NCBI GenBank assembly: GCA_031290475.1
Contig: JAITNM010000181.1
Location: 1-49,531 of the forward strand
Source of the DNA: Treponema sp.
GTDB lineage: Bacteria; Spirochaetota; Spirochaetia; Treponematales; Breznakiellaceae
Direction: 5' to 3'
DNA: 49,531 nucleotides
A program made the translations under genes and the position numbers. Of this stretch, positions 7,785 through 42,067 are shown piece after piece. Under the pieces are notes generated by a model. It ran no database searches, was not told the origin of the DNA, and was given only the letters and a program-made list of their open reading frames with translations. The stretch's first letter is position 1, and every line of letters starts with the position of its first letter.

Positions 7785-8627
7785 ATGGCGATGGAAGAAA
7801 TTTTTGAGAAATTACGGAGCCTTCAGGACATCCTTTCTCAAAAGATCTCATTAGAGCAGGATATTCAGGAAATTCCTAAGATACTGACTACCCAGGAAGA
7901 ACTCCTGGCCCGGCTCAAGCGATCCTTTATTGAAAAAAACCAGGAGTATGAGAAGGCCCGTATTGCGGAAACAGAGTTTCGGGAGCTCCTTGCAACGGCG
8001 GAGCAGAACCGGGAAAAGGCCGAAAAGAACATGGATTCCATCAGTACCCAGCGGGAATATGAGGCCCTGGACAAGGAGATCCGTGACGCTTCCGAAAAAG
8101 AAGCCCAATACCGGAAGGATCTCCAGAGGGAAGAACGGATTTTAGCTGATCTGGAAGAACAGATGAAGCAGAATACCAGCCTCATTGAGCAGCAGGAACA
8201 GGAACTTGAGGAACGCCGGTCGGGTATCGAAATTGAAGTTTCCGGGAAAAAGCAAAAGATCCAGGAACTGGAAACGGAAGAACGGGAACTAAGCAATGAT
8301 CTGGATCCGGAAGTATTCTTTAAGTTCGAACGGATCATTCGCAATAAAATGGGACGGGGCATTGTGGCCATAAAAAACGGGGTTTGTACCGGATGTCACA
8401 TGATCCTCCCGGTCCAGTTTGCCAATGTTATCCGTCTGGGAGAGGAAATTGTCTTCTGCCCCTATTGTTCCCGTATCCTCTTTTATGAGGAATCTGAAGA
8501 AGGTGTTGAAGATTACTTTAACGTGGAAGATTCGGGGAGTCTCTCCGATTTGGAAGATATAGAAGACGAAGGATTCGAAGAGGAAGAAGAGGAAGAAGAA
8601 AAGGTAAATATTGATTACGAAGAATAG
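7785..8627 (+). CDS. Zinc-ribbon coiled-coil protein (C4-type, CT398-like)
   Basis: A 280-residue protein. Residues about 1-185 form a long charged alpha-helical coiled coil rich in Glu, Gln and Arg. A C4 zinc ribbon follows (CTGCHMILP at about 204-212 and CPYCSRIL about 30 residues later). It ends in a very acidic tail (EEEEEEEEK). This is the architecture of the bacterial C4-type zinc-ribbon family (DUF164; chlamydial CT398 is a structurally known member reported to interact with sigma-54 and secretion components). I start at ATG 7785 because AAGGGG precedes it; the in-frame 7746 codon is less likely. Its stop codon is one base from the start of rnpB, so the two probably share a transcript. 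Confidence 0.85.
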   Translation: MAMEEIFEKLRSLQDILSQKISLEQDIQEIPKILTTQEELLARLKRSFIEKNQEYEKARIAETEFRELLATAEQNREKAEKNMDSISTQREYEALDKEIRDASEKEAQYRKDLQREERILADLEEQMKQNTSLIEQQEQELEERRSGIEIEVSGKKQKIQELETEERELSNDLDPEVFFKFERIIRNKMGRGIVAIKNGVCTGCHMILPVQFANVIRLGEEIVFCPYCSRILFYEESEEGVEDYFNVEDSGSLSDLEDIEDEGFEEEEEEEEKVNIDYEE

Positions 8628-8628
8628 C

Positions 8629-9034
<406 letters not shown>

Positions 9035-9112
9035 TTTTTTTTAAACAGTTTTTTTGAAAGGATACCTCAGCCCCTAGACTTTTTCTCAAATAAAGTATTA
9101 CATAAATGTAGA

Positions 9113-26119: not shown

Positions 26120-26911
26120 TTAAGGAATTCTGTACGGTCTGGTTGCGCCTGTTACGGGATCGGGAAAGGAAATACGGCAGGCCAGTAATCCTAAAAAAGG
26201 ATAAGCCCCGTAGGGCGCGCCGCCGTAAACGCCGTCGTTCACCAGAGGAAAGCCCGTCCACGCAAGGTGGCAGCGTATCTGGTGGCGGAAACCCCGGCAA
26301 ATCCGCAGTGAAAACCGGACAAGGCCCTCCTCCGGGCTTTCCCAGGGAGAATCCGCCGGGACGCCCGCCGTGTCCCGGATCACGGACAGTATTTCTGTGC
26401 GGTAGGGCTTCCCCCGGTCAAGGGCGATTTCGCTTCCGCCCTTGGGGCCCCCGGGGCTTTTTGTCCCCCCCCCTTCTAAAAGTACCGGCCTCACCGCCTT
26501 TCTCCCCGGGCCGTAGGGTCTGAAAGCGCTTTCAATACAACCGGGAAGGGCCAAAGGACGGCGGGGAAAGCCCGGCAAGGCGGCAGGGGGGGAATCCCGT
26601 TCCCCTAAAGACAGGGCCTCGTATTCCTTCACAAACCGGCCTTCCCCCTGGGCCCTGCGGAGGGCGTTCATTGCGGCCTGGGTCCGGGCAATGAGGACAA
26701 GTCCCCCTGTTTCATAGTCCAGCCTGTGGAACATGCCGCCTTCCCGGGGATTCTGTCCGGTAATATCCAGTATTTCCGGAAAACGGTCCGCGGCCCATTG
26801 CAGGAGGGTTCCCTCCCCTCCCCCTTCCCGCAGCGGAACGGAATGAACCTTGGGGGGTTTATTAATCACGAGGTATGTTTCGGTAACATCGATCAAAATG
26901 GGCTCACCCAT
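26120..26911 (-). CDS. RluA-family pseudouridine synthase
   Basis: 263 residues. There is no S4 domain; it begins with the catalytic domain, YLVINKPPKVHSVPL, then HRLDYETGGLVLIART (catalytic Asp in HRLD; usual form HRLDxxTSG) and late motifs GFRHQIRCHLAWTGFPLVNDGVYGG (in pieces). The central region from about 125 to 195 is a long, Gly/Pro-rich insertion. It modifies rRNA or tRNA uridines; the target is not determinable. ATG 26911 has AGAAGG about 9 nt upstream; an in-frame start at 27010 would overlap the divergent gene. There are 56 bp between its stop and the scpA start, and these hold the scpA promoter. Confidence 0.86.
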   Translation of the reverse strand: MGEPILIDVTETYLVINKPPKVHSVPLREGGGEGTLLQWAADRFPEILDITGQNPREGGMFHRLDYETGGLVLIARTQAAMNALRRAQGEGRFVKEYEALSLGERDSPPAALPGFPRRPLALPGCIESAFRPYGPGRKAVRPVLLEGGGTKSPGGPKGGSEIALDRGKPYRTEILSVIRDTAGVPADSPWESPEEGLVRFSLRICRGFRHQIRCHLAWTGFPLVNDGVYGGAPYGAYPFLGLLACRISFPDPVTGATRPYRIP

Positions 26912-26939
26912 ACACAAAAACCTTCTAACGAAGTATAAT
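26911..26939 (+). promoter_or_regulatory. Divergent promoter of the YihY-CNBD gene
   Basis: TACACA (26911-26916), a 17-bp spacer and a perfect TATAAT (26934-26939). ATG 26946 follows after 6 nt, so transcription would begin at about the start codon. On the opposite strand TATACT (26937-26932) overlaps the same bases and could serve the divergent pseudouridine synthase, though its -35 is poor. Confidence 0.55.
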
Positions 26940-26945
26940 GATTTT

Positions 26946-28331
26946 ATGGTCAGGCAAAAAAGCCCTTTGGGCCTTTTAAAAAAGGCTGTTTCCCTTGCCG
27001 GATGCGTCACAAGACCGCTTTGGCTTGGGGCGGAATTTTTTGGCCGGCAGGGCCTGGCAAATCACGCCGCTGCCGGGGCTTACGGCTTCTTTCTCTCCGC
27101 CGCCCCGGCGCTCCTCATCGTCTCTTTTTTCATTTTCAGAACCATCCAGACGTCTCCGGAAGCCGTAGTGGAACTGGTTTCCCGCTCCGGCTTTTTTTCA
27201 AACACCTTCGATATTCCGGGTATTATTAAAACTTTTTTAGCGACTCAAAAACAGGGCATCCCGGGGTTCATCTCGGTGTTAAGCGTACTTTGGGCGGCAG
27301 TGGTCTTTTCCTCGGTGATGCGCCGGGGGCTTGAGATTGTCTTTATCCCGGCCAGGACTTCCGGTTTGGCGGGAAATTTCGAGCCGAAAAGCCGGGGACT
27401 CCTGGGTACTATCGGCGTCTCCCTGGGAATTGAAGCGGCGCTGATCCTCTTTACATTCGCGGCGGTGATGAATTCATACCTCATGATAAGGCTGTTTCAG
27501 TTTCTCGGGATTATTTCTCCAAGAATTCCAAGCTTCTTCCGGATTGGGGTATCCCTCATTCCCAACCTGGTAATGATTCTGCTCGTTTACTGCGCCTACT
27601 CCTTCATTCCTTCAAATCCCCCTAAACCTCCTGCCGCTCTGGGAGGAACCGCCGCCTGTCTTATCCTCTATGGCGCGGTATCTTTCCTGCTGCATTTTAT
27701 CCTGCTCCCGGGCAGGTACAATATTCTCTACGGAACCCTGGGAAGTCTCATTATCTTCATTATTAATGTGTACTTCTTTTTTTTATTTTTCTTTTTTGGC
27801 GCGGAACTAAGCTATGTTATTGATTCCTTTGATGTGCTCTATTTCAGCAAATTCAGGAAAATCCATTCCTCCCCGGCGCAGAAATACAATTTTTTTGAAA
27901 AGCATCTCTTCGCTTCTTTTGAAGGCCCTTTACATAAATACATACGCCGTTTTAAAAAGGGAGATGTTATCATGCGGAAAAATGATATAAACTGGGATGT
28001 TTATTACCTGGTTTCAGGAGAAGTGGGCATCTTTCTGGATTCCCCGCCTGAACATGAGGGCAAAGACCCCGGTCTTTACCCGGAGGAGAGCGGCATCGCC
28101 ATAGTCGGAGAGGGAAACTTTTTTGGAGAAATGGAATACCTTCTGGATGAGCCGAGGAGCGCCGGGGCGCGCGCCCTGAGGGACGCCGTTACCCTGGCCC
28201 TTCCGCCGGAATTTTTCTGGAAGCTCATAAACAACGATCCTGCCATAAATTACAGGCTGATAGAAATACTATCGGAGCGCTTAAAACACACAGATGAAAA
28301 ATTCACCGCCGCATCCCAAGAAGGCGGATAA
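26946..28331 (+). CDS. YihY/BrkB-type membrane protein fused to a cyclic-nucleotide-binding domain
   Basis: 461 residues. The first about 300 form a YihY/BrkB (UPF0761) integral-membrane domain with some six helices (NHAAAGAYGFFLSAAPALLIVSFF, in pieces; later LYGTLGSLIIFIINVYFFFLFFFFGAELSYV). After residue about 320 comes a soluble domain of the cyclic-nucleotide-binding fold: FKKGDVIMRKNDINWDVYYLVSGEVGIFL, then the phosphate-binding cassette FFGEMEYLLDEPRSAGARA, with the Glu and Arg that hold the cyclic phosphate present. YihY proteins were once called ribonuclease BN by error; their transport or channel role is unclear. The fusion suggests a membrane process gated by cAMP or cGMP (inference). 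Its 3' end overlaps the convergent rluD by 29 bp. It has no Shine-Dalgarno. Confidence 0.85.
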   Translation: MVRQKSPLGLLKKAVSLAGCVTRPLWLGAEFFGRQGLANHAAAGAYGFFLSAAPALLIVSFFIFRTIQTSPEAVVELVSRSGFFSNTFDIPGIIKTFLATQKQGIPGFISVLSVLWAAVVFSSVMRRGLEIVFIPARTSGLAGNFEPKSRGLLGTIGVSLGIEAALILFTFAAVMNSYLMIRLFQFLGIISPRIPSFFRIGVSLIPNLVMILLVYCAYSFIPSNPPKPPAALGGTAACLILYGAVSFLLHFILLPGRYNILYGTLGSLIIFIINVYFFFLFFFFGAELSYVIDSFDVLYFSKFRKIHSSPAQKYNFFEKHLFASFEGPLHKYIRRFKKGDVIMRKNDINWDVYYLVSGEVGIFLDSPPEHEGKDPGLYPEESGIAIVGEGNFFGEMEYLLDEPRSAGARALRDAVTLALPPEFFWKLINNDPAINYRLIEILSERLKHTDEKFTAASQEGG

Positions 28332-29235
28332 TTTTCCGGAACCGTTCCGGCAGGGGAATACTGAAACGCCGGGGAGAAGGAAGCGCGTTTTCCGCGGAAA
28401 AGGGCAGTTGTATGGAAAGGCTCTTTGCGTGGAGCATCAATGTTGCGTTTTTAAACTTCTTATCCTTCTGTCCGTTGTAAAGGGGATCCCCCAGAATGGG
28501 GCAGCCCAGGTGGAGGAGATGTACCCGTATCTGGTGGGTCCTTCCGGTATAAGGACGGAGCAGGAGCAGGGAGTATCCCTCCCAGCGGCGTATTACCCGG
28601 TAGGCGGTTACGGCCGGTTTCCCCGTGGTTTCTGAAACCGTAAACTTCTTTCGATCCCGTTTGTCCCGGGTGATTCTTGTTTCCACCTTGCCCCGGTTTT
28701 CGGCCGGCCCTCCCCGGACTATGGCGGCGTAAATCTTCCGCACGCTCCGTTCTTTGAATTGGGAGGAAAGAAACGCCAGGGCTTCGTCATCATAGGCGGC
28801 GATAATCACCCCTGAGGTGTCCTTGTCAAGGCGGTGCACGATACCGGGCCTAAAGCCCTCCCCTGCCCCGCCGAGGTTCCGCCGCCGCCAAAGCAGGGCG
28901 TTTGCCAGGGTACCCCGGTGATTTCCCGCACCGGGATGAACTACCATGCCCTGCTCTTTATTGATCACGACCACCCGCCCGTCCTCGTACATAATATCCA
29001 GGGGAAGGTCTTCAGGAATAAGATCCGGAGGTTCGCGGTCGTTCCAGAAAAGCTCAAGGAAGTCCCCCGCTTTTAAGAGCCTGGAAATTTTTACTTCTTT
29101 TCCATTCACTTTAGCTTTAAGATTTTTTGCCTTGATCTGGGACCGTGAAAGAAGCTTGAGGTACAGGGCCGCGTACCGATCAAGCCTGAGCCTGGACGGA
29201 ATTTCGCCCGCCACATATCCGGAATAAGCGGGCAA
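28303..29235 (-). CDS. rluD: RluD-like large-subunit pseudouridine synthase
   Basis: 310 residues: an S4 domain at about 15-75 (PSRLRLDRYAALYLKLLSRSQIKAKNLKAKVNGKEVK, in pieces), then the RluA-type catalytic domain with HRLDKDTSGVIIAAYDD (catalytic Asp) and GRTHQIRVHLLHLGCPILGDPLYN. RluD forms pseudouridines in helix 69 of 23S rRNA. It appears to start with TTG at 29235, directly after the stop codon of the upstream gene; a GTG at 29214 is possible. It is the last gene of the pilZ operon and overlaps the convergent membrane gene by 29 bp. Confidence 0.9.
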   Translation of the reverse strand: MPAYSGYVAGEIPSRLRLDRYAALYLKLLSRSQIKAKNLKAKVNGKEVKISRLLKAGDFLELFWNDREPPDLIPEDLPLDIMYEDGRVVVINKEQGMVVHPGAGNHRGTLANALLWRRRNLGGAGEGFRPGIVHRLDKDTSGVIIAAYDDEALAFLSSQFKERSVRKIYAAIVRGGPAENRGKVETRITRDKRDRKKFTVSETTGKPAVTAYRVIRRWEGYSLLLLRPYTGRTHQIRVHLLHLGCPILGDPLYNGQKDKKFKNATLMLHAKSLSIQLPFSAENALPSPRRFSIPLPERFRKIIRLLGMRR

Positions 29236-37994: not shown

Positions 37995-38042
37995 CGGTGT
38001 AATGTGTTTTTGTCCGGCGCTTGGCGCCGGTTTATCACACCG
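37995..38042 (+). other. Nested hairpin directly upstream of the TPP riboswitch
   Basis: CGGTGT (37995-38000) pairs with ACACCG (38037-38042), enclosing a strong stem CCGGCGC-TTG-GCGCCGG centred near 38022. TTTATC follows the inner stem, a poor T-run. It may be the terminator of the preceding gene, part of the leader, or a domain that packs against the riboswitch. Confidence 0.5.
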
Positions 38043-38141
38043 ATTTCGGGGTGGTTTGACGAAATAAATATTCCGTCTTGCCTGAGATTATACCCGCTGA
38101 ACCTGATCCGGATAATGCCGGCGTAGGGAACCATCCGATTT
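38043..38141 (+). promoter_or_regulatory. TPP riboswitch (THI element) upstream of thiB
   Basis: The thiamine pyrophosphate aptamer is recognisable from CGGGGTGG, CTGAGATTATACCCG, CTGAACCTGATCCGG, ATAATGCCGGCGTAGGGA in order, which are the conserved pyrimidine- and pyrophosphate-sensing helices. P3 is GACG/CGTC. P1 is approximate (GATTTC with GAACCATC). It controls thiBPQ according to TPP level. The downstream 85 nt contain ACCGGG/CCCGGT pairing without a T-run, and a Shine-Dalgarno AGAGGAG at 38213-38219, so control of translation is more likely than termination, though not shown. Confidence 0.93.
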
Positions 38142-38227
38142 GGCCAGAGCGCGTAATGGTTAAACCGGGGCAACAGTGACAAAGTCTTGGAAAACCTATC
38201 CCGGTCAGTTTAAAGAGGAGTTTCTTC

Positions 38228-39277
38228 ATGAAACAAGTTTCTTCAACTTATGAGACCGGCCTATGTACGGCGAGTAAGGTCCTGGTCCTTGTCCTGGGGG
38301 GCATACTTATGCTCGGTACCGTGGTTTTTGCCGGAGGCCGTAAGGAAACGGGTCCGGCAAACAGGGTGGTCATCTGGACCTACGATTCCTTTAATTCAGA
38401 ATGGGGCCCGGGGCCAACGGTAAGCGCGGATTTTAAAGAAAAAACAGGGATTGAAATTGTCTGGGTGAACCACGGAGACGCGGGAGAAGTGCTGTCCCGT
38501 CTGCTCCTGGAAGGGAAAAATGCCGGGGCGGACATAATTCTGGGACTGGATCAGAACATGGCGGACCGGGCCCTTGCCTCAGGACTGCTTGAGGCGTACA
38601 AGCCCGCCGGGGCGGGGGCGGTGTTTCCCGAACTCGTGATTGATCCCTCCTACCGGCTCATCCCCTTCGATTACAGTTATTTTGCTATATGCTACGATTC
38701 GGAAAAGATTGCCAATCCTCCGTTGAGCCTTGAGGATCTGACCAAAGCCGAATACCGGGGAAAGCTCATCCTCATGGATCCCCGCACCTCTTCGCCGGGA
38801 CTGGGTTTTTTCTCCTGGACCCAGGCGGTGTACGCCGGCAGGTGGCCCGAATACTGGCAGCGGCTCCAGCCCTCGATTCTCACTATTTCCGACGGCTGGA
38901 GTTCCGGGTACGGCCTCTTTACCGAAGGCGAGGCGCCCCTGGTTTCTTCTTACACCACAAGCCCTGCCTATCACCTTGAGTACGAAGAAACCGAACGTTT
39001 TAAGGCGGCCATCTTTGCCGAAGGGCACCCCATACAGATTGAGGCGGCGGGACTGCTTTTGGCCGGGAAAAACAAAGAAAACGCGAAAAAATTTTTGGAT
39101 TATATGCTGAGTGACGGTTTTCAGGGACTTATCCCCCTCACCAACTGGATGTACCCCGTAACTCCCGCGGCCCTGCCCGAATCATTTAAGAAGAGTCCCA
39201 AAAGCGATAAGGCCCTCTTTCCCAGAGCTCCGGAGGAATCCGACCTTGACCGCTGGGCCGCTCTTTTCCGGAAATAG
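38228..39277 (+). CDS. thiB: Thiamine ABC transporter, substrate-binding protein ThiB
   Basis: 349 residues: a signal sequence (VLVLVLGGILMLGTVVFAGG), then a periplasmic binding protein fold with VIWTYDSFNSEWGPGPTVSADFKEKTGIEIVWVNHGDAGEVLSRLLLEG (in pieces) as in ThiB/FbpA-type proteins, and LPFDYSYFAICYDSEKI-like segments. It captures thiamine or its phosphates for import. It follows the TPP riboswitch and is 5 bp upstream of thiP. Shine-Dalgarno AGAGGAG precedes ATG 38228. The mature part begins GRKETGPAN, and a lipobox Cys is absent, so it should be periplasmic and soluble. Confidence 0.93.
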   Translation: MKQVSSTYETGLCTASKVLVLVLGGILMLGTVVFAGGRKETGPANRVVIWTYDSFNSEWGPGPTVSADFKEKTGIEIVWVNHGDAGEVLSRLLLEGKNAGADIILGLDQNMADRALASGLLEAYKPAGAGAVFPELVIDPSYRLIPFDYSYFAICYDSEKIANPPLSLEDLTKAEYRGKLILMDPRTSSPGLGFFSWTQAVYAGRWPEYWQRLQPSILTISDGWSSGYGLFTEGEAPLVSSYTTSPAYHLEYEETERFKAAIFAEGHPIQIEAAGLLLAGKNKENAKKFLDYMLSDGFQGLIPLTNWMYPVTPAALPESFKKSPKSDKALFPRAPEESDLDRWAALFRK

Positions 39278-39282
39278 CCTGA

Positions 39283-41037
39283 ATGAATAAAAGTGAACGA
39301 GTTTTCCCCTGGATATTGGCGGCGCCGGTCCTGGTTTCGGCCCTGTGCTTCTTCATACTGCCCTACATCTCCGCCCTTTCCGCGCCTTTCAGGGGCGCCT
39401 TCTCCGGCGGCGGCCGGGGCGGCGTTCCCAAGGCGCTGGAAAATCCGGCCCTGTTCGGGGTGACCCTGTTCACCCTGAAGCAGGCCCTCCTCTCCACCCT
39501 GGCGGCCCTTGCCCTGGGACTCCCCGGGGCCTGGCTTTTGGGGGGGCTCACGGACAGCCCCTCCCGGGCAAAGCGCGGTTTTGCCCTCCTTATCCGTACC
39601 CTTACGGGAATTCCCTTTGCCATGCCCCCAATCCTCGTGGTGCTTGCCTTTGTGCTCTTCTTCGGCAACAACGGATGGGCCAACCGGCTTATCATGGCCG
39701 CCGCCGGCGTCCCGGAAGGCCCCCTGCGTATTTTGTACAAACCTTCCGCGGTGATCCTGGCCCACAGTTTCTACAACTTCCCCCTGGTTATACGCGTGGC
39801 AGGGGACGGTATAGCCCAGGCGAGGCGGGCATACGCCCCGGCGGCGGCAAGCCTGGGGGCCTCCCCTTTCATCACCGCGGTAACCGTAATTCTACCCATT
39901 TGCCTCCCGTCGATTATGGCCGCGTCTTTACTGGCGTTCCTCTACTGTTTTACGAGCTTCGCCGTAGTCCTCGTCCTGGGGGGAGGCCCCGCGGTCACCA
40001 CACTGGCGGTGGAGATCTACCGCTATGCCCGCCTTTCCCTCGATTTCCAAAGCGCCGGCGTCCTGGCCCTGATAGAAACCCTGATCGCCCTCACCGTCTT
40101 CCTGGCCTATGTGTTTTTTAACCGGGGCGGAAAATTTTCCAACCGGCAGGGGCCGAAGGGCCCTGGGGACGCCTGGGCCGCAGTTTCCCAGGATCCGAAA
40201 GAATTCCCCATGGAAGGCAAAGAACATTCCCGTCTTGGCGCCGGGGTAATTTTTATTTATGGGGCAGTGTTACTGTTTTTTGTACTGGGCCCGCTCTTTT
40301 CCATACCGGCGGAATCCCTCCTGTCAAGGTCCACGTGGAGCGCCCTGCCCCGCCTCTCCCTCCGCCACTGGCTCAGCCTGGGTGAAAGGGTACTCCCCGC
40401 CCTGGGCCGTTCCCTCATCCTGGCCTCCCTCTCCGCCACCCTGGCGAGTTTTCTCGCGATCCTGGCCGCTTCTTCGGCGCGCATCGCCTCTCCCGCCTCC
40501 CCCTTGGGGAACATACTCCGCCTTGCGAGCCTCTCCCCCCTGGCGTCGTCCGGAATCGTCCTGGCCTTAGGCTGGCTTTCCCTCTACGGCCGCGGCGAAG
40601 ACGGCGCCGGTAATTCCCGGTCCCTCCTGGCGGTAGTAATACTCCACGCCGTCATTGCCCTGCCCTTCGCCTTTAACTCAGTTTCCCAGGGACTGCGGAG
40701 CATACCCCCCAATACGGCTAACGCCGCGTCGGTTTTGGGGGCCGGGCCTTTTCTGCGTATCCTGACGGTGGAAATCCCCATTTCTTTAAGGCGGCTCCGT
40801 TCAGCCTGGGCCTTTTCCGCGGTCATAAGCCTTGGGGAACTCAATGCCATACTCATGCTGGGCATGGATCAGTGGGAGACCCTCCCCCTTCTGATATACC
40901 GGGCGGTGGGGTCCTACCGCTACGGCCCGGCCTGCGCAGCAGGAACCCTGCTCCTGCTTGCAAGCGCCGCCGCTTTCCTGGTCTCGGAAATATCCGGCCC
41001 CGGTACAAAAACTGCCGGAGCTTTCCATGGGAATTGA
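39283..41037 (+). CDS. thiP: Thiamine ABC transporter, permease ThiP
   Basis: 584 residues made of two homologous permease halves with about twelve transmembrane helices, each with an EAA-like loop (AAASLGASPFITAVTVILP near residue 190; AASVLGAGPFLRILTVEIP near 488). This double-length form is usual for ThiP/FbpB. It starts with ATG 39283, 5 bp after thiB, and overlaps thiQ by 11 bp. A central charged linker (residues about 285-325) separates the halves. Confidence 0.94.
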   Translation: MNKSERVFPWILAAPVLVSALCFFILPYISALSAPFRGAFSGGGRGGVPKALENPALFGVTLFTLKQALLSTLAALALGLPGAWLLGGLTDSPSRAKRGFALLIRTLTGIPFAMPPILVVLAFVLFFGNNGWANRLIMAAAGVPEGPLRILYKPSAVILAHSFYNFPLVIRVAGDGIAQARRAYAPAAASLGASPFITAVTVILPICLPSIMAASLLAFLYCFTSFAVVLVLGGGPAVTTLAVEIYRYARLSLDFQSAGVLALIETLIALTVFLAYVFFNRGGKFSNRQGPKGPGDAWAAVSQDPKEFPMEGKEHSRLGAGVIFIYGAVLLFFVLGPLFSIPAESLLSRSTWSALPRLSLRHWLSLGERVLPALGRSLILASLSATLASFLAILAASSARIASPASPLGNILRLASLSPLASSGIVLALGWLSLYGRGEDGAGNSRSLLAVVILHAVIALPFAFNSVSQGLRSIPPNTANAASVLGAGPFLRILTVEIPISLRRLRSAWAFSAVISLGELNAILMLGMDQWETLPLLIYRAVGSYRYGPACAAGTLLLLASAAAFLVSEISGPGTKTAGAFHGN

Positions 41038-42067
41038 ACTGCGGGGAATAACCAAAACCTACGGAGACTTTTCCCTCTCCGTTGATCTCAGGGTGGAAGA
41101 CGCGGAGATCCTCGCCCTGGTAGGACCTTCGGGCTGCGGAAAAACTACGGTTTTAAATATCATTGCGGGACTCACTGAACCGGACGAGGGTGAAATTATC
41201 GTTAACGGCAATATCGTAAATGCCGTTTCACCGTGGAAAAGAAATATTTCTGTGGTTTTTCAGGATTTATCGTTATTCCCCCATCTTAATGTGGGAAGCA
41301 ATATCGCCTATGGACCGTTTATCCATGGGATTCCCAAAAATGAGCGGCTCGCGCTCGTAAAGGAAAAATTAGCCCTTGTGGGGCTTGAGGGCTACGAAAA
41401 AAGGCCTGTTTACACCCTTTCAGGAGGCGAGCGCCAGCGGGCGGCTATTGCCCGGGCCCTGGCGGCTTCTCCTGACGCCCTGCTTTTGGATGAGCCTTTT
41501 TCGAGCCTGGACGCCCCTTTAAGGCGGCGTCTCCGCCTGGAATTCCTTGATATCAGGCGGGGAAAGGGGGGGAACGATCCTTCGCCGCCCACCCCCTCAA
41601 AGACGCGCTGTCCCTGTATCTTTGTAACCCATGACCGGGAAGAGGCGGCCGTTATCGCCGGCCGTATCGCCCTCATGAAAGACGGCCGCATCCTGGAAAC
41701 AGGGGCGGCGAGGGAAATTTTCCAAAAGCCCAAGACGCCCTTCGGCGCCGGTTTTTTCGGCAGGGGCTCAGTCCTCCCCTGCGGCCTTTTTATCCCCAAA
41801 GACGCCGTTTCACTTAACAGTAATACTGTTGATAGTAATACTGTTGATAGTAATACTGTTCCATTGCGCGCCGTGGTTCACAGCAGCGTTTTCGAAGGCG
41901 ACAGAATTGCTGTCGAGTTTGAGGTTCCCCTGCCCGGCAGGACCAAAGGGGCAATCCTCTCCGCCGAACTAAGCGGCCGTGCGGAACCCCCCGTCCCCGG
42001 AAACGAAGTTACCGTTCATATCCGCCGGGACCTGGTATATATGCTGACCCCCCCTAACCCCGCATGA
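41027..42067 (+). CDS. thiQ: Thiamine ABC transporter, ATP-binding protein ThiQ
   Basis: 346 residues. Walker A GPSGCGKTT, Q-loop VVFQDLSLFPHLNVG, signature LSGGERQRAAIARALAA, Walker B LLLDEPFSSLDAP and switch His in IFVTHDREEA. The C-terminal about 90 residues form a TOBE-like regulatory domain, preceded by a repeated linker SNTVDSNTVDSNTV encoded by a 15-bp tandem repeat. ATG 41027 is inside the end of thiP (11-bp overlap); a longer upstream start is not needed. The stop overlaps the convergent DUF445 gene by 14 bp. Confidence 0.93.
   Translation: MGIELRGITKTYGDFSLSVDLRVEDAEILALVGPSGCGKTTVLNIIAGLTEPDEGEIIVNGNIVNAVSPWKRNISVVFQDLSLFPHLNVGSNIAYGPFIHGIPKNERLALVKEKLALVGLEGYEKRPVYTLSGGERQRAAIARALAASPDALLLDEPFSSLDAPLRRRLRLEFLDIRRGKGGNDPSPPTPSKTRCPCIFVTHDREEAAVIAGRIALMKDGRILETGAAREIFQKPKTPFGAGFFGRGSVLPCGLFIPKDAVSLNSNTVDSNTVDSNTVPLRAVVHSSVFEGDRIAVEFEVPLPGRTKGAILSAELSGRAEPPVPGNEVTVHIRRDLVYMLTPPNPA
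41819..41860 (+). repeat. 15-bp tandem repeat in the thiQ linker
   Basis: AGTAATACTGTTGAT repeats 2.8 times (41819, 41834, 41849) with no mismatch, in frame with thiQ. With the preceding bases, AACAGTAATACTGTT (41816-41830) is a near-perfect palindrome. It encodes the variable SNTVD repeats. Confidence 0.85.

Follow-up and report, generated by a model that had tools for sequence, protein, structure and literature searches.

We find that the gene at positions 26946-28331 (forward strand) of the stretch of DNA analysed here (49,531 nucleotides of a Treponema sp. contig, hereafter the window) encodes a protein of 461 aa in which a YihY/BrkB membrane domain is followed by a cyclic-nucleotide-binding domain (CNBD). 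This architecture is not a lone oddity, as it is shared by a whole clade and typical of the order to which the window belongs. The presence of a built-in CNBD suggests, as far as sequences can tell, that the activity of YihY is switched by a cyclic nucleotide in this order.

The gene is an unbroken open reading frame of 461 residues plus stop, and the remaining five frames over the same interval contain 12 to 32 stops each. Both halves were detected with Pfam above the cut-offs. The profile Virul_fac_BrkB (PF03631) matches residues 35-293 (27048-27824, forward strand) with E 2.9e-22 and 80 bits against a cut-off of 33.7, covering profile positions 3-256 of 259. The profile cNMP_binding (PF00027) matches residues 334-431 (27945-28238, forward strand) with E 1.3e-15 and 57.6 bits against a cut-off of 27.5, covering positions 2-89 of 89. 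The fusion of these two domains had been proposed from the letters of the sequence, and it is borne out by both matches lying in one reading frame; the C-terminal part is however shorter than the 140 residues given in the original prediction, with 128 residues from residue 334 to the end. We considered a gene-call artefact or a chance match, which the unbroken frame together with both Pfam matches excludes. An AlphaFold model (P0001 and L001) had a mean pLDDT of 38.9 and was not usable. Upstream of the gene, a weak promoter-like site, TACACA-17-TATAAT, is found at 26911-26939 on the forward strand; two sites of this type occur in 1.8 kb, where 1.4 are expected by chance. As the TATAAT ends 6 bases ahead of the ATG (26911-26946), the message might be leaderless, which is a weak indication.

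To describe the spread of the fusion, we surveyed 392 genomes of the phylum for PF03631 at E 0.001 and obtained 276 positive genomes; a second match in G173 (20.2 bits) was below the threshold and was left out. The window's order, which appears to be that of Treponema judging from the lineage of locus L001, includes 84 BrkB-positive genomes: seven from the window's family (f1), 65 from f2, 11 from f3 and one from f4. L001 is a relative of the window locus in a Treponema MAG and was found among the matches listed in genome contigs. We extracted 85 proteins, comprising those of 83 of the 84 genomes, L001 and a gene from family f17 (L022). BrkB is detected in all 85 and PF00027 in 83 of them (E 0.01). 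The two proteins without PF00027 should be L038 and L098, where the CNBD columns are absent and the frames run to contig ends. For G247, the 84th genome of the order, the CNBD was read by eye in the ORF. The CNBD is present in the same ORF in 82 of the 84 BrkB-positive genomes of the order, and the remaining two genes are truncated where their contigs end. Outside the order, the f17 gene L022 (genome G329) is the single fused case. Within the window's family, the protein is dispensable, since 10 of 17 genomes have no BrkB match. No related locus was found in viral contigs, and among 135 plasmid records that matched, none covers more than 80% of the query; in the 20 that were listed, the match is confined to the CNBD part.

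We then inferred a tree from the membrane domain alone, based on 64 rows and 288 columns, where f2 was thinned to one in five and L098, L107 and the split or divergent L119-L127 were left out. The 34 fused rows form one side of a branch with a support of 100/98, and the distribution of the fusion needs one change, with 0/500 shuffles as low. The addition of nine rows, including f8, f11 and f16, results in a support of 100/100 for the fused-side branch; the trees are unrooted, and the tree program warned of long branches outside the fused rows. The sequence from f17 is placed inside f3. A single recent fusion in one MAG can be rejected, as nearly all genomes of the order share the fusion and the tree needs one change.

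When sampling YihY outside of the fused clade, we find that the C-terminal position is occupied differently. The sample contains one YihY gene each from 40 genomes and from 19 further genomes, including f8, f11 and f16, which belong to the same class, and covers 59 of the 191 other BrkB-positive genomes. In the first 40 (E 0.01), BrkB was matched by 40/40, PF00027 by 0/40, Rrf2 by seven and MarR_2 by two, with one protein matching both of the latter. In the further 19, BrkB was matched by 19/19, PF00027 by 0/19 and the tail profile described below by 10/19, where the fetched stretch ends ahead of the C-terminus in 7/19. The expectation that most YihY proteins lack a CNBD is thus borne out in the other spirochaete proteins checked, where 0/59 have one, yet within the order of the window nearly every YihY protein carries it (82 of 84). 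A tail of at least 90 residues is present in 29/40 outside-clade YihY, a count in which L126 was entered as short-tailed, though it matches Rrf2. A profile of 17 such tails matches 12/12 further tails (E 5.6e-6 or better) and 0/85 fused-clade tails at E 10. Furthermore, the profile of all 40 outside YihY matches solved Rrf2 regulators (4cic, E 1.7e-9). For most tails, the term Rrf2-like rests on this shared profile, as most of them have no Pfam match of their own. In f8, f11 and f16, Pfam and the tail profile detected neither a CNBD nor a winged-helix-like tail. The C-terminal position of YihY thus seems to host exchangeable regulatory domains, because many other spirochaete YihY carry a different domain there, which is Rrf2-like where it could be named.

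A further insertion was observed within the membrane domain itself. In L119-L123, a PSII_BNR/YCF48 beta-propeller-like stretch (E 9.8e-8 to 1e-28) interrupts BrkB after the third span, in a loop that is predicted to lie outside. The interrupted genes are found at L119:438-2765, L120:377-2665, L121:346-2730, L122:1595-3178 and L123:1529-3814 and encode 762-795 aa (L122 is cut). The break spans 314-346 residues in the four uncut proteins, and the winged-helix tail profile recognizes each of the five. PSII_BNR is also matched by 10/19 of the further outside-clade YihY.

Within its family, the window protein represents a divergent branch of PF03631 that lies outside the narrower subfamily model TIGR00765 (yihY_not_rbn), since it reaches 16.6 bits where the cut-off is 73.15. 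YihY/BrkB is widespread and was detected in 10/14 control genomes. RNase BN is an old name for this family, and an RNase BN function finds no support in the present analysis. Averaging over the 85 homologues reveals six hydrophobic stretches (residues 46-65, 106-118, 159-183, 203-214, 236-246 and 267-291), where segments split by the threshold were joined by hand. The mean number of positive residues per loop alternates along these homologues (6.0, 2.8, 6.8, 1.5, 3.0, 1.2 and 3.8), as expected for a protein with both termini inside. With this predicted topology, the CNBD would sit in the cytosol. Searches of solved structures with the profiles of 85 and 40 relatives showed no chain matching the membrane part among the best 60 of 241 matches and all 25 matches, respectively; in both sets, the best stretch is the C-terminal domain.

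Some residues of the membrane domain are shared with the wider family, and others are particular to the fused clade. P54 and G263 are present in 31/31 other aligned YihY and Y262 in 28/31; P54 is also invariant in the fused clade. E163, located in the third hydrophobic segment (27432-27434, forward strand), is a glutamate in 85/85 fused-clade rows and in 0/31 other YihY, which makes it a candidate for ion coupling. F278 and F279 are likewise invariant in the fused clade and occur in two and one of the 31 other YihY, respectively, where position 279 is W in 23/31. Compared to YihY/BrkB proteins such as E. coli YihY (PF03631, UPF0761), the window protein thus has the same membrane domain including P54 and G263 and adds the CNBD, E163, F278 and F279.

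An intact phosphate-binding cassette of a CNBD follows the motif G-E ... R-[ST]-A. In the window protein, the cassette FFGEMEYLLDEPRSAGARA (residues 392-410; 28119-28175, forward strand) contains G394, E395, R404, S405 and A406 and aligns with E. coli CRP, R-S-A included, so that the intact cassette noted earlier is found here. A loose form of the motif occurs in 95 of 200,000 residue shuffles of the window protein, and the PF00027 E-value is the stronger evidence. By sequence, 22 solved relatives were detected, every one matching in the CNBD; these include the CRP-family regulator 4ev0 (E 9.4e-8), SthK and regulatory subunits of PKA. We scored a cassette as complete if it contains G394, E395, R404, [STAC]405 and [AG]406, with L038, L098 and L139 outside the counts. 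Outside family f2, complete cassettes are found in 19/20 proteins, window included (f1 6/7, L001 1/1, f3 10/10, f4 1/1, f17 1/1), compared to 6/63 within f2. When alanine alone is permitted at position 406, these numbers are 18/20 and 1/63. In f2, G, E and R are found together in 47/63, R is lost in 10 and E in 12. The exception outside f2 is L016 (genome G310), the tree neighbour of the window (support 91/80), which keeps G-E, has lost the cassette arginine and contains a small insertion in this region.

The CNBDs of the 20 members outside f2 share a mean pairwise identity of 0.35, whereas G394, E395 and L400 are identical in all of them (1.0) and R404 and A406 reach 0.9. The identity of these residues in 20/20 despite the low overall identity points to selection for ligand binding. 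As the frequency of complete cassettes differs strongly between f2 and the remaining members, nucleotide sensing looks, at the level of sequence, to be kept in some lineages and eroded in f2, where the CNBD has probably lost or changed its ligand. An intact cassette is therefore not a general rule of the fused clade, given f2 and L016. A loss of cyclases does not explain the erosion, since f2 genomes have cyclases. Furthermore, 57/63 f2 members keep the domain despite an incomplete cassette, so that the CNBD may have a ligand-free role there. T449, which aligns with a threonine of CRP that we take to be the adenine contact, is T in just 6/20 members outside f2. The linker that connects the last span to the CNBD (residues 294-333; 27825-27944, forward strand) is largely conserved in length, as the spacing between A286 and G339 is 50-56 residues in 73/83 proteins (range 43-84).

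The genome of the window (G000; 3.2 Mb, 306 contigs, 87% complete) contains one BrkB gene, ten CNBD stretches and four class III cyclases; a look for cyclase genes had been suggested as a check of the prediction, and such genes are present. At least one class III cyclase is found in 85/85 BrkB-positive genomes of the order and f17, compared to 13 of the 48 genomes with BrkB that belong to other families of this class. This association is confounded by descent, because all 10 f1 genomes without a BrkB match have class III cyclases too. The nucleotide-binding stretches of the four cyclases read KMDYT (twice), KMNYT and SMKYN and thus leave cAMP versus cGMP undecided. A search for LpxC, without which lipid A cannot be made, was negative in the window's genome and positive in 4/14 control genomes; at 87% completeness, the absence of LpxC is likely and not proved.

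The window gene is solitary; its neighbours are divergent on one side (26120-27010) and convergent on the other (28303-29235), and both are presumably pseudouridine synthases. We compared 30 loci in total (L001, L016-L044), with flanks of about 1.5 kb, some of them cut. The neighbours of the window gene were matched beside 5/7 other f1-type loci (L001, L016, L017, L019 and L020; not L018 and L031), and they were matched at none of the other 23 loci. Across these 30 loci, we saw no partner gene beside the YihY-CNBD gene that is conserved over the order, and the neighbourhood gives no clue to function. Elsewhere, the window contains a class A RNase P RNA (8627-9039) and a TPP riboswitch (38037-38147) upstream of genes 38228-42067, which we read as a substrate-binding protein, a permease and an ATPase, probably for thiamine uptake.

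Based on these observations, we propose that the window protein is a cyclic-nucleotide-regulated membrane protein, where a nucleotide from the cell's own class III cyclases would switch the YihY activity, most likely transport; we regard this complete reading as evenly balanced between right and wrong. The cyclases would make a cyclic nucleotide, most likely cAMP, which would dock in the cassette at G394, E395, R404 and S405. The C-terminal helices of the CNBD would move or close upon binding, and the linker of near-constant length would relay this movement to the spans, whereby the activity of the YihY domain would be switched. The switched activity would most likely be transport, perhaps of a lipid or another amphiphile. 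The steps differ in their strength. That the window CNBD binds a cyclic nucleotide is likely and well supported by its sequence, and the ligand is probably cAMP, a guess from the CRP-like cassette. That binding changes the activity of the membrane domain is somewhat favoured, by analogy with cyclic-nucleotide-gated channels. The activity itself is the weakest step, and a lipid as the substrate is a tentative suggestion. The sequences show the fusion, its conservation, its grouping on one branch, the intact cassette and the presence of cyclases; the cytosolic placement, cAMP as the ligand, the coupling, transport and the lipid substrate are inferred from them and from known systems. The earlier suggestion that cAMP or cGMP may gate the membrane domain is thus supported in part.

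Transport is proposed for the YihY domain because the related E. coli YhjD is reported in LPS transport, where it reportedly co-purifies with LptB and binds core-lipid A (PMC3219608). A suppressor in either YhjD or MsbA is furthermore named in the title of a reference in PMC4404585. The idea of a lipid substrate comes from this one distant relative. The YhjD model, TIGR00766, matches several other YihY in our sample (e.g. E 1.3e-10), and it is absent among the matches of the window protein up to E 1. If the genome really has no LpxC, LPS cannot be the substrate; another lipid would then probably be the substrate, because no lipid A gene was found with the one family tried. That the window protein itself works like YhjD in LPS transport, as this relationship might suggest, is thus very improbable, and LPS transport is disfavoured by the negative search for LpxC.

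Other readings of the CNBD were weighed against the proposed switch. In KCNH-type channels, a CNBD works without a cyclic nucleotide, and the domain of the fused clade could similarly be a structural or oligomerising part that holds membrane domains together, with the cassette as a relic. The 57/63 f2 members that keep both domain and linker with an incomplete cassette fit this explanation, as does the tree neighbour L016 without the cassette arginine. However, G394, E395 and L400 are identical in 20/20 proteins outside f2 over a deep divergence, and R-[ST]-A is found in 19/20 (allowing the glycine of L024) or 18/20; such exact conservation would hardly be expected of a relic, and we consider a purely structural role unlikely. 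CRP-fold domains are also known to bind other ligands, and the drift of the cassette in f2 would agree with a small ligand other than a 3',5'-cyclic mononucleotide. The window cassette is CRP-like, however, and class III cyclases occur in all BrkB-positive genomes of the order and f17, so that we give such a ligand little credence.

It is also conceivable that the CNBD senses the nucleotide without gating, with the membrane domain merely tethering the sensor, whose target would be a partner protein. Many spirochaete YihY carry a winged-helix-like tail at the same place, and such a fold usually acts on DNA or partners, which agrees with a tether. Against this, P54, Y262, G263 and E163 are invariant in the membrane domain, which suggests more than an anchor, and the 30 loci contain no partner gene conserved over the order. 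We thus judge a tethered sensor to be rather improbable and retain the cyclic-nucleotide-regulated YihY domain as our working model.

The window protein can be compared to several known systems. Cyclic-nucleotide-gated channels combine a membrane domain, a linker and a C-terminal CNBD. SthK is such a channel and shares this layout, and among the solved matches its CNBD ranks second (E 1.3e-4), whereas the membrane domain of the window protein is BrkB. Membership among potassium channels was rejected, as the protein has no potassium filter motif and matches none of the Pfam channel families at E values up to 1. The CRP/FNR regulators contain a CNBD whose R-S-A cassette is like that of E. coli CRP; in contrast, the window protein is attached to the membrane, and no DNA-binding domain was matched with Pfam. 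A C-terminal domain at the same place is found in PRK04214 (NF003256, 'ribonuclease BN/unknown domain fusion protein') and in the Rrf2-like spirochaete fusions, but theirs is winged-helix-like. The PRK04214 model reaches 16.8 bits on the window protein against a cut-off of 500, matching residues 206-295 alone, and none of ten outside YihY proteins that were checked reaches the cut-off. Thus, both halves are known families, and a YihY with a C-terminal domain is already known as PRK04214. In the open-licence literature, we found no paper in which a cyclic-nucleotide-binding domain is linked to YihY, BrkB or ribonuclease BN; the combination may well be listed in domain databases.

More broadly, YihY could be a transporter platform with an exchanged C-terminal module, which would be an Rrf2-like winged helix in many spirochaetes and, in the order of the window, a nucleotide sensor. 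In that case, the fused clade would consist of cAMP-gated membrane (lipid) transporters, a possibility that we put forward as speculative. To our knowledge, no bacterial cAMP-gated membrane (lipid) transporter has been described. If the clade does consist of such transporters, their dependence on cAMP would allow the activity of the YihY family to be assayed directly. The hope that the fusion provides a handle on YihY function is reasonable, though the architecture characterizes a whole clade and not a single oddity. A natural fusion to a domain of known ligand class offers a switch for probing YihY activity. If the proposed regulation is true, a cyclic nucleotide would act directly on a membrane protein that is not an ion channel in this order of spirochaetes.
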